Shown: positions 3,940 through 12,104 of the stretch, in pieces
Layout of the letters: the number at the start of each line of letters is the position of its first letter
How positions within the stretch are numbered: position 1 is the first letter of the stretch
Assembly: GCF_000348785.1 (NCBI RefSeq)
Contig: NC_020520.1
Location: forward strand, 3,224,001-3,288,000
Length of the DNA stretch: 64,000 nt
DNA from: Ilumatobacter coccineus YM16-304
Lineage (GTDB): Bacteria > Actinomycetota > Acidimicrobiia > Acidimicrobiales > Ilumatobacteraceae
Reading direction: 5' to 3'
The notes under the pieces: model-generated
Seen by the model: only the letters and a program-made list of their open reading frames with translations
Database searches by the model: none
Told to the model about the DNA's origin: nothing
Made by a program: the position numbers and the translations under genes

Positions 3940-5769
3940 TCAGAGTCCCAGGTCGGGCAGGGAGATCTTCGGCAGGGTGATCTCGGGCAGCGTGATCACG
4001 GGCAGGGTCACGTCTGGCAGCGTCACGTCTGGGAGCGTGATCTCCGGCAACGTCACGATGTCGGGCAACGTGATCTCCGGCAACGTGATGATGTCGGGCA
4101 ACGTGATCTCCGGCAGCGTGATGATGTCGGGCAACGTGATCTCCGGCAAGGTGATGATGTCGGGCAACGTGATCTCCGGCAGCGTGATCTCGGGGAGCGT
4201 GATCTCGGGCAGCGTGATGCCCGGTGTGGTCGTCCCTGGGGCCGGAGCGACCGACGTGGTGGTCGTCGAACTCGATCCCGCCACCGTCGTGGTCGTCTGC
4301 GTACCGACCGCGGACGTGGTCGTCGTCTGCTGCGTACCGACCGTGGTGACCGGTCCGCTCGTGCTCGGTGGCGTCGAGTCCGGCGACGACGGGTCGGTGG
4401 TGGTCGGCCCGCGGCGCACCGTGGTGACCGGGTCGGGAAGCGTCGTGTCACCCGCCGGGCTGCCGGGGTCGTCGGATGTCGGCGGCTCGGAGTCGGTCTC
4501 CGAGGCCGCTGGCTCCACCAGAGTCGCACCCGGAGCAGGCGACGGCGAACCGGTGGGCGAGCCACCCGGCGACGCGACGCCGTTGGCGCCGCGAACGTTC
4601 GATCGCTCGTCGACGTCGACCTCGGTGGTGGTGATCTCACCGTCGTCGACGAAGACGGTCTCGGTCGGCTGCGTTGCGTTCGCCACCACGCCGGCGGCGC
4701 CTGCCGTGGTGCCGACGGCGACGACGGCGAGGGCCGGCCCGATCGCAGCACCGACCTGTGTCACGATCGCCTGAGGCAGGAGGGCTGCCTGCGAGAGCCA
4801 CCGCGACGGACGCGTGAGGCGACTGGTAGCGCCGAGCGACGCATTGAGGAACGCGCGCACCACGTCGGGGTCGAACTGGGTGCCGGCATGCTTCGACAGT
4901 TCGGCCCGAGCAGCTTCGCTGGTCATCGGGTCCTTGTACGAGCGAGTCGACGTCATGACGTCGTAGGCGTCGGCGACCGAGACGATCCGTGACGCCATCG
5001 CGATCCGCGTGCCGCTGAGACCGTTCGGGTAGCCACCTCCGTCGAAGCGCTCGTGGTGTTCCCAGACCGCCCGAACCGATTCTCCGATCCATCGTGCGAG
5101 GGGTTGCACGTACGCCTTGCCGGCGAGCGGGTGCGACTTGATGATCTCGAACTCGTCGTCGGTCAGACGGTCGGGCTTGTTGAGGATGGAGCCGGGCACG
5201 TCGATCTTGCCGATGTCGTGCAGCAGCGCCGCCCACCGCAGACGATCGAGGTCACGGCCGGTGATGCCCATCTCGACGCCGATCATGTGGGCGTAGCCAC
5301 GGACCCGTTCGGAGTGACCCCGAGTCATGCGGTCGTGACGGCTCAACAGGCCGACGAGTTCGAGCAGGCGTCGTGCCGCGTCGCCTGGCAACTCACCATC
5401 GGGACTGACCCGATGCTCCTCGATGCGCTTCTTCAGTTGGCTGGTGGTGCCGATCTTCATCGCCAGACCGAGCCGCGACGGGACCTGGTCGGGGAAGGCG
5501 AGACCGAGCTTGAACAGCGTCGCCAGTGGGACGACGCGGCGAGCGATGCGCTCGGCAGCGACCATGGCGGTGAGGGAGGCGAGCGCAACGATCGCCCAGC
5601 GGACGATGCCCCACAGCGTCGACGGTGGCGACGGCAACAGCCCCGTCACCACGTAGCCGGTCGCCAACGAGATCGCGATCGGCGTGACGAACGCTGCACC
5701 CCGGATCATGCGAGCAAGACCAGGACGCTCTTGCCAGCCCTGGTCCTCCGGCGACTCCTTGCGCTTCAT
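3940..5769 (-). CDS. Membrane HD-GYP phosphodiesterase-like protein with extracellular ITLPE/ITLPD repeat tail
   Basis: About 609 residues from ATG 5769 (a GTG directly before it is equally possible; AGGAGG lies 6-9 bases upstream). Order of parts: two membrane segments (about 25-45 and 54-74); a cytoplasmic HD-GYP domain (about 130-310) with HSERVRGYA, LLHDIGKIDVP (HD 185-186) and HHERFDGGGYPNG (239-251), the complete set for c-di-GMP hydrolysis; a third membrane segment (about 340-362); a Thr/Pro/Ser-rich stretch; and about 95 residues of ITLPE/ITLPD repeats at the C-terminus. The topology puts the repeat tail outside. Cyclic-di-GMP breakdown coupled to a surface or wall-spanning tail is an inference. 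Confidence 0.88.
   Translation of the reverse strand: MKRKESPEDQGWQERPGLARMIRGAAFVTPIAISLATGYVVTGLLPSPPSTLWGIVRWAIVALASLTAMVAAERIARRVVPLATLFKLGLAFPDQVPSRLGLAMKIGTTSQLKKRIEEHRVSPDGELPGDAARRLLELVGLLSRHDRMTRGHSERVRGYAHMIGVEMGITGRDLDRLRWAALLHDIGKIDVPGSILNKPDRLTDDEFEIIKSHPLAGKAYVQPLARWIGESVRAVWEHHERFDGGGYPNGLSGTRIAMASRIVSVADAYDVMTSTRSYKDPMTSEAARAELSKHAGTQFDPDVVRAFLNASLGATSRLTRPSRWLSQAALLPQAIVTQVGAAIGPALAVVAVGTTAGAAGVVANATQPTETVFVDDGEITTTEVDVDERSNVRGANGVASPGGSPTGSPSPAPGATLVEPAASETDSEPPTSDDPGSPAGDTTLPDPVTTVRRGPTTTDPSSPDSTPPSTSGPVTTVGTQQTTTTSAVGTQTTTTVAGSSSTTTTSVAPAPGTTTPGITLPEITLPEITLPEITLPDIITLPEITLPDIITLPEITLPDIITLPEITLPDIVTLPEITLPDVTLPDVTLPVITLPEITLPKISLPDLGL
3950..4222 (-). repeat. In-frame tandem repeat coding ITLPE/ITLPD units
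   Basis: Part of the HD-GYP gene. The central portion (about 4035-4180) repeats a unit of roughly 36 bases encoding LPEITLPDIIT, with only one- or two-base differences between copies; flanking units are shorter 15-base versions. Units vary in ITLPE, ITLPD, VTLPD and ISLPD at the edges, which suggests repeat expansion and contraction from a five-residue ancestor. Repeat number probably varies between strains. Confidence 0.85.
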
Positions 5770-5959
5770 CACACCGCCCCTCCTCGTTGGTGATTCGTTG
5801 ACACCTCTTCATCGGCCGCGGAACGCGACATCTGAACGCGGAGCGAGAGATCTTGACGGAGTCGTGATGATGGTCACGCGGGGTGACCGACCCGTCGACG
5901 CAGGGGCAGCGGCGACGTGGTTCAGCGACGCAGACGGACGTCGCGACCAGCGGTTCCGG

Positions 5960-8318: not shown

Positions 8319-8428
8319 GTTTGTGTGACCGATACCGCGCCCCACGCGCACAATCGGTCACACAAACCTTGGGGCGTTGGATCTGTGTGACCGAATCCGC
8401 GCCCCACGCGAAGGTTCGGTCACACAAA
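8319..8428. repeat. Two hairpins with GTTTGTGTGACCGAT arms and a shared loop
   Basis: Copy 1 (8319-8367) has perfect 15-base arms GTTTGTGTGACCGAT / ATCGGTCACACAAAC around a 19-base loop. Copy 2 (8384-8428) has 12 matching arm bases. Both loops contain CCGCGCCCCACGCG, so stem and loop are conserved together. They fill the convergent junction between the EamA and sirtuin genes and could end transcription from both sides. Confidence 0.75.
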
Positions 8429-8466
8429 CCCTGGATCGGCGAGATGGCGGCCGATCGGGCTTCAGG

Positions 8467-11915: not shown

Positions 11916-11932
11916 CCGACCAGCCATCACCG

Positions 11933-12104
11933 TTCTGCCCCTCCGATCCGTCACGGATGACGATTCGGCGGGGCAAAACCCGGCCTGCCGCTCACGGTTT
12001 TGCCCCTGCGAACCGTCACGGATGACGATTTGGCGGGGCAAAACCCGAAGCTCACTGTTTTGCCCCTGCGAACCGTCACGGATGACGGATTGGAGGGGTA
12101 AAAC
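11933..12104. repeat. Three tandem 47-nt palindromic repeats (TTTTGCCCC...GGGGCAAAAC)
   Basis: Copies at 11933-11979, 11998-12044 and 12058-12104. Each has outer arms TTTTGCCCC / GGGGCAAAA and an inner palindrome CGTCACGGATGACG, so each could form a hairpin with an internal bulge. Copies 2 and 3 share the first 30 bases exactly; copy 3 has compensating-type changes (GGGGTAAAAC). They fill the convergent junction between prfC and the DUF3048 gene. Not a CRISPR: only three units, short variable gaps and palindromic structure. Confidence 0.8.

Follow-up and report, generated by a model that had tools for sequence, protein, structure and literature searches.

A putative HD-GYP phosphodiesterase of Ilumatobacter coccineus with a repeat tail predicted to lie outside the cell, and its family in Actinomycetota

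The HD-GYP enzymes PA4781 (4r8z), 4mcw and V-cGAP3 (5z7c) carry their input parts N-terminal to the enzyme. A plan in which a cytoplasmic enzyme is followed by a membrane span and then by C-terminal wall-facing domains is found in the PASTA Ser/Thr kinases, for example PknB. In the LapD/LapG system, c-di-GMP is linked to adhesins across the membrane, with LapD binding c-di-GMP and holding the adhesin. The HD-GYP proteins HdgA and HdgB of Streptomyces venezuelae, membrane-bound actinobacterial proteins likewise, are listed as 6TM-HD-GYP and 6TM-degHD-GYP; six spans precede the HD-GYP domain there and the table gives no C-terminal outside part (PMC6205966).

The gene described here was found in a stretch of 64,000 nucleotides from Ilumatobacter coccineus YM16-304 (the window). 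Its product was similar to PA4781, 4mcw and V-cGAP3 in the HD_5 domain, in the HDxGK and HHExxDGxGYP motifs and in the predicted fold, whereas its large variable part followed the enzyme and was predicted to be outside. The plan of the protein and its relatives resembled that of PknB, and two tails of the family matched PASTA, but the enzyme was a second-messenger hydrolase rather than a kinase and an extra two-span module stood at the N-terminus. The link between c-di-GMP and adhesins was shared with LapD/LapG, whereas in the family the hydrolase was fused to the outside part. We proposed, with a probability of about 0.55, that the protein is a transmembrane one-component receptor with a presumed sensing function, which would make the hydrolysis of c-di-GMP depend on contact with the wall or a surface.

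The gene and its enzyme domain

The gene (3940..5769; it and all its features below lie on the minus strand) was a single unbroken open reading frame from an ATG at 5769 to a stop codon ending at 3940, encoding 609 amino acids. A Shine-Dalgarno-like sequence, GAGGAGGGG, was located 7 nt upstream of the ATG (5777..5785), and an alternative GTG start 3 bases upstream of the ATG gives the protein P0001, in which the residue numbers are higher by one. Two N-terminal spans were followed by the HD-GYP domain, a third span, a Thr/Pro/Ser linker and a repeat tail. Based on open reading frame translations, the neighbouring genes presumably encode a TauD-like dioxygenase and a MoeB/ThiF-rhodanese-like protein. 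Imperfect direct repeats of ~50 bp were also observed in intergenic DNA of the window, at 8322-8434 (2 copies) and 11925-12098 (3 copies), with a spacing of 60-65 bp and 86-92% alike. The host genome contained 28 GGDEF matches, indicating that a c-di-GMP network is present, and 9 HD-family matches. A search of plasmids matched 552 records, none of which covered 80% of the query.

The HD-GYP domain (PF13487; 4861..5349) was identified by Pfam, alignment and structure comparisons. It matched HD_5 (PF13487) with an E-value of 3.2e-37 and 128.3 bits against a curated cut-off of 27.2, and HD (PF01966) with 4.3e-18 and 66.1 bits against a cut-off of 22; no family beyond these two was found in the whole protein at E 0.1. 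Both signature motifs, HDIGK and HHERFDGGGYP, were present in the alignment. The closest solved structures by sequence were 5z7c, 4mcw and 4r8z, and a Foldseek search with the AlphaFold model returned PA4781 (4r8z) as the best match (E 1.6e-8, TM-score by target 0.70). The preliminary description had read an apparently complete c-di-GMP phosphodiesterase domain, and this was borne out at the sequence level by the intact motifs and the Pfam match. Hence, the protein is probably a c-di-GMP phosphodiesterase of the HD-GYP type. The NCBIfam model 'nitric_RR_NosR' was rejected, since it scored 119.5 bits where its cut-off is 400, and two other NCBIfam matches were weaker still.

A family with a common core and varied C-terminal parts

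The N-terminal part of the protein, two spans and an FPDxxPSR segment (5413..5745), was a family-specific module. Span 1 (residues 27-45; 5635..5691) and span 2 (residues 54-76; 5542..5610) had hydropathies of 1.73 and 1.82 and corresponded to the model helices 16-44 and 51-91, respectively. Searched with the whole protein, 36 of 60 relatives gave matches, many in the HD-GYP region only. At 28 places, its own counted, the score was at least 230 bits, and 27 of these matches started at residue 13 or earlier; this search with a single protein already matched relatives from residue ~9 onward. An alignment of 26 sequences had 36 invariant columns, eight of them ahead of the HD-GYP domain. The module profile matched the protein with an E-value of 6.3e-40, the query itself being one row of the profile.

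Further, the module profile was matched in at least 64 of 298 genomes of the host's order. In a sample of the phylum, at least 21 of 396 genomes had a match, and 18 of the 21 belonged outside the order; the counts are lower bounds and some matches were partial or weak (for example G545, E 2.6e-4). Since 234 of the 298 genomes had no match among the matches listed, the module has no core function in the order. One genome (G061) contained at least 12 matches, which suggests a repertoire. A scan of GTDB contigs gave at least 80 loci; among the matches listed, nine (L090-L098) matched from alignment residue 4-8 and came from Actinomycetota, Actinomycetes, Acidimicrobiales, Acidimicrobiaceae, Thermoleophilia and, in one case, Dormiibacterota.

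The family members were picked by the N-terminal module and not by the tail, giving 117 distinct cores (L173 and L286 are one gene; L271 and L272 are two places with near-identical cores). The HDxGK and HH..GxGYP motifs were kept in 112 of them, while L175 had GYH in place of GYP. Four loci of one genus, g264 (L187, L188, L189 and L197), had the two-span module and a tail without the HD-GYP catalytic motifs and are likely pseudo-enzymes. It was also observed that a single open frame of 849 amino acids (L026:589-3135) comprised a GGDEF domain (149-292) followed by a two-span/HD-GYP/Big_9 chain. This may be a receptor in which cyclase and hydrolase are fused, or else two genes in one frame.

The lengths of the C-terminal parts after the enzyme ranged from 90 to 2,289 amino acids with a median of 362 (102 closed frames among the 117 distinct cores). 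Pfam was run on the C-terminal parts of the 115 out of 119 frames with a tail of at least 40 amino acids, cut to 850 amino acids and with one gene included twice. The matches were Big_9 (45), Cadherin_5 (42), Cadherin_4 (37), Cadherin (10), LTD (7), He_PIG (6), CshA (5), CBM_6 (3), CBM_35_2 (3), PASTA (2), fn3 (2), FG-GAP_3 (1) and Pentapeptide (1), where Ig and cadherin models may match the same repeats, as in L280. Some outside parts were low-complexity tails, and others were Ig/cadherin-like or resembled lamin-tail, CBM, PASTA and CshA domains. The family member L254:120-2483 carried true pentapeptide repeats after a linker (PF00805, E 2e-33).

Of 103 closed family frames, 95 combined a hydrophobic span at most 70 residues away from the enzyme with a tail of at least 90 amino acids, and none of 94 other HD-GYP proteins did so; both sets were closed frames with HDxGK, the controls coming from the fetched loci, and 18 open family frames and none of the others had been dropped. 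The protein from I. coccineus had both features. Eight of the 103 family frames had no span by this measure, and 3 of the 94 other HD-GYP proteins had a tail of such length without a span. Among closed frames, detectably similar tails were recorded for 34 of 73 pairs at 60-70% core identity and for 17 of 23 pairs above 70%, so that core similarity is a poor predictor of tail similarity.

A conserved enzyme with changing outside modules is expected if the members of a receptor family have exchanged their inputs. The pattern would also fit surface proteins that are displayed together with a local removal of c-di-GMP. In such a case, the outside part would be a membrane-anchored adhesin or stalk, the HD-GYP enzyme would work at a constant rate and the fusion would only localise the hydrolysis. 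The C-terminal parts of many relatives are indeed adhesin-like, some exceeding 2,000 amino acids, and the query tail has no sensor-type fold that Pfam matches. However, the catalytic motifs are retained almost throughout the cores, and the two-span module is conserved beside the enzyme (the 8 invariant columns in 26 rows) to an extent that is presumably more than an anchor needs. Display without sensing was therefore considered unlikely.

The linker and the repeat tail

The Thr/Pro/Ser-rich linker (residues 373-517; 4219..4653) consisted of 145 amino acids, among them 35 T, 21 P and 19 S, and was followed by the repeat tail (residues 518-609; 3943..4218) with 17 [IV][TS]LPx units, partly in 11-residue doublets. 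The tail was 92 residues long, in agreement with the earlier description of about 95 residues of five-residue repeats; its period was mostly five, but the register was not strict and slipped by one residue at four points. At the units 538, 549 and 560 (IITLPE) and 571 (IVTLPE) an additional Ile or Val was present, thus forming 11-residue doublets across the middle of the array. Tandem Repeats Finder gave periods of 15 bp and 33 bp for the tail DNA. The T, L and P residues were almost invariant over the 17 units, with one S for T. When the tail was shuffled 10,000 times, [IV][TS]LP occurred 0.16 times on average and never more than 4 times, hence the array with its 17 units was far beyond chance.

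The GC3 value was 0.96 over residues 513-609, compared with 0.82-0.86 in four other measured segments, which is in keeping with the same reading frame through the tail and gives no sign of a frameshift. Comparison of the 12 distinct 15-bp units gave 30 base changes, of which 13 altered the protein, when 20.2 were expected at random; as few protein-changing differences were obtained in 0.003 of 5,000 random trials. This is suggestive of constraint on the reading frame of the tail, while a recent duplication of units alone could keep them alike. A frameshift or a wrong frame was rejected on the unbroken open reading frame, the GC3 and the apparent constraint on the repeat units, and the proposed fusion of the tail to the enzyme held.

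Several assignments of the tail were rejected. No Pfam family matched it, including the pentapeptide repeats (PF00805 or kin), whose beta-solenoids have the five-residue period in common with it and are truly present in the relative L254; in the tail, by contrast, every unit contains Pro and the register slips. The protein ended with ITLPKISLPDLGL and not with the LPxTG, hydrophobic stretch and basic end of a sortase-anchored surface protein. A copy from elsewhere in the genome was dismissed, as a single weak match was obtained (E 0.27), in a frame without an ITLP array.

The preliminary description had suggested a stiff rod or a beta-solenoid. This was neither borne out nor contradicted by structure prediction, since neither AlphaFold run gave a confident fold of the repeat region. 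The last 106 residues alone gave a mean pLDDT of 47 with short strands, and the tail in the full-length model (11 sequences) reached 27-36. The blocks over residues 151-310 of that model had values of 74-92 with one exception at 51, and those of spans 1 and 2 reached 90, while span 3 was without confident structure. Strands at residues 480-505 of the Thr-rich linker (block means 69-72) are probably artefactual and due to its Thr runs.

A tree of 114 cores (without L181, L187, L188, L189 and L197, and with L173/L286 in twice) placed the query in a clade of ten with an SH-aLRT of 95, beside L010, a paralogue from its own genome (match at 1,045,476-1,047,077), and L013 (88). L012 and L043 of this clade were truncated at contig ends. 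The remaining seven relatives were complete and shared a C-terminal domain containing N-[YV]-D-x-D-R-[DN], recognized by eye, which the query did not have; no Pfam family named this domain in the three relatives scanned (L010, L013 and L016). It follows that the Pro-repeat tail probably replaced the domain of the clade after a duplication. An ortholog with the same tail, for comparison of repeat numbers, was not found among the frames read from 60 relatives and 200 genomes of the family.

The density of [hydrophobic]-x-[hydrophobic]-P in the query was by far the highest among 115 tails, 17 in 241 amino acids, followed by L025 (4 in 120), L250 (4 in 131) and L017 (5 in 224). Looser Pro-repeat tails (VPSVTVPSVTVPS..., VTLPSAPVTLP...) were recognized by eye on L311, L313, L017 and L025, which makes 5 of 125 members with the query included (the 117 and L306-L313, some cut by contig or locus ends). 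The earlier remark that no HD-GYP protein with such a tail was known is qualified by these looser tails, and the overall plan runs through the family. When the tail was used as the query, 29 of 298 genomes of the host's order matched, its own included, on varied frames, some of which may not be genes. A search for the repeat on other membrane enzymes had been suggested; the matched frames included, judged by eye, membrane proteins (L063, L068 and L070) and an apparent lipoprotein (L067). Arrays such as VPDVSVPDVA or VPEVS were seen on L061, L067, L068 and L070, some apparently exported or membrane proteins. The repeat class, judged from these sequences, is a recurrent type of spacer or stalk, beyond HD-GYP proteins too.

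The tail may also be regarded as a neutral minisatellite, functionless and expanded by slippage of the 15/33-bp repeat after the query had lost the C-terminal domain that its relatives carry. The near-identical 33-bp units in a tandem array and the length of the terminal branch leading to the query core (0.57, the median being 0.31) are consistent with this, as are the BLAST search, in which the tail matched no other tail of the family with the low-complexity filter on, and the best match elsewhere in the genome of only E 0.27. However, protein-changing differences below random (suggestive only, given a possible recent duplication of units), almost invariant T, L and P and the looser Pro-repeat tails on four relatives and on unrelated proteins of the host's order argue against it, and we judged this origin rather improbable.

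Predicted topology and proposed mechanism

Span 3 (residues 334-363; 4681..4770), the third membrane span of the preliminary description, was recognized by a hydropathy of 2.00 at residues 334-352; it was rich in Ala and Gly and its model helix (340-358) was of low confidence. The sequence after residue 363 contained 5 K/R against 33 D/E, compared with 10 K/R against 5 D/E in the stretch 72-125, predicted to be cytoplasmic. Owing to this acidic bias the tail is predicted outside the cell, as had been proposed. The span candidate lay 20 residues after the enzyme in the query against 75-83 residues in its nearest relatives L010 and L013 (hydropathies 1.67 and 1.98), which had weak peaks (1.04 and 1.08) within 70 residues. 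An intracellular scaffold with no true span 3 would agree with its composition and weak modelling, with its weak or displaced counterparts in L010 and L013 and with similar repeats that precede a membrane span, and are probably inside, in L068 and L070 (by eye), but it is highly improbable in view of the hydropathy followed by the acidic bias, of the span in 95 of 103 family frames against none of the 94 controls and of the adhesin, CBM and PASTA domains that lie beyond the span in relatives.

The receptor was modelled as follows. The N-terminus would be inside, with spans 1 and 2 forming a hairpin and the HD-GYP domain in the cytoplasm. Span 3 would bring the C-terminus out, and the flexible Thr/Pro linker would carry the exposed tail, an extended Pro-interrupted repeat that might reach into or across the actinobacterial wall; the stretched length of 92 residues corresponds to ~30 nm, the linker being extra. 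Polymers of the wall or surface, as the putative ligand, would engage or crowd the tail, and the signal, presumably directed inwards, would pass via span 3 and the two-span module. The arrangement of the HD-GYP domain, its presumed activity and consequently local c-di-GMP would be altered. The receptor is favoured by the HD-GYP motifs and their retention across the cores, by the adhesin-type, carbohydrate-binding and PASTA domains of relatives, by the span and tail of the family against the controls, by the charge bias, by the GGDEF matches of the genome and by the apparent constraint on the tail. Counted against it are the low model confidence for the tail and span 3, the eight family frames with no span by the above measure, the displaced span candidates of L010 and L013, the five members with incomplete catalytic motifs and the 234 genomes with no match to the module. 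Further points against it are the lack of a ligand and of a partner gene among the neighbours as read from open reading frames; and since the C-terminal domain of the nearest relatives is missing from the query, the tail could be a leftover spacer.

The wider family is a more interesting result than the tail itself. The literature was searched for the architecture, with most subscription papers and preprints outside the scope, and neither an HD-GYP protein with a C-terminal adhesin-like ectodomain nor a report joining HD-GYP and 'PASTA domain' was found among the papers listed; within this scope the two-span/HD-GYP/span/ectodomain family is apparently undescribed. We tentatively suggest that it may represent a large receptor class of Actinomycetota, in which a two-span/HD-GYP core is combined with interchangeable outer modules (giant adhesins of the cadherin/Ig type, carbohydrate-binding and PASTA domains, pentapeptide solenoids and Pro-repeat rods) and attachment or wall contact would directly set c-di-GMP hydrolysis. 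The protein of I. coccineus would be its wall-spanning rod version, replacing the C-terminal domain of its relatives. How surface contact of bacteria leads to a change of c-di-GMP is a standing question, studied mostly via flagella, pili and separate adhesin systems. In a protein family whose members unite a c-di-GMP hydrolase and an adhesin-like part in a single chain, the step from contact to signal would be directly testable by swapping or removing domains.
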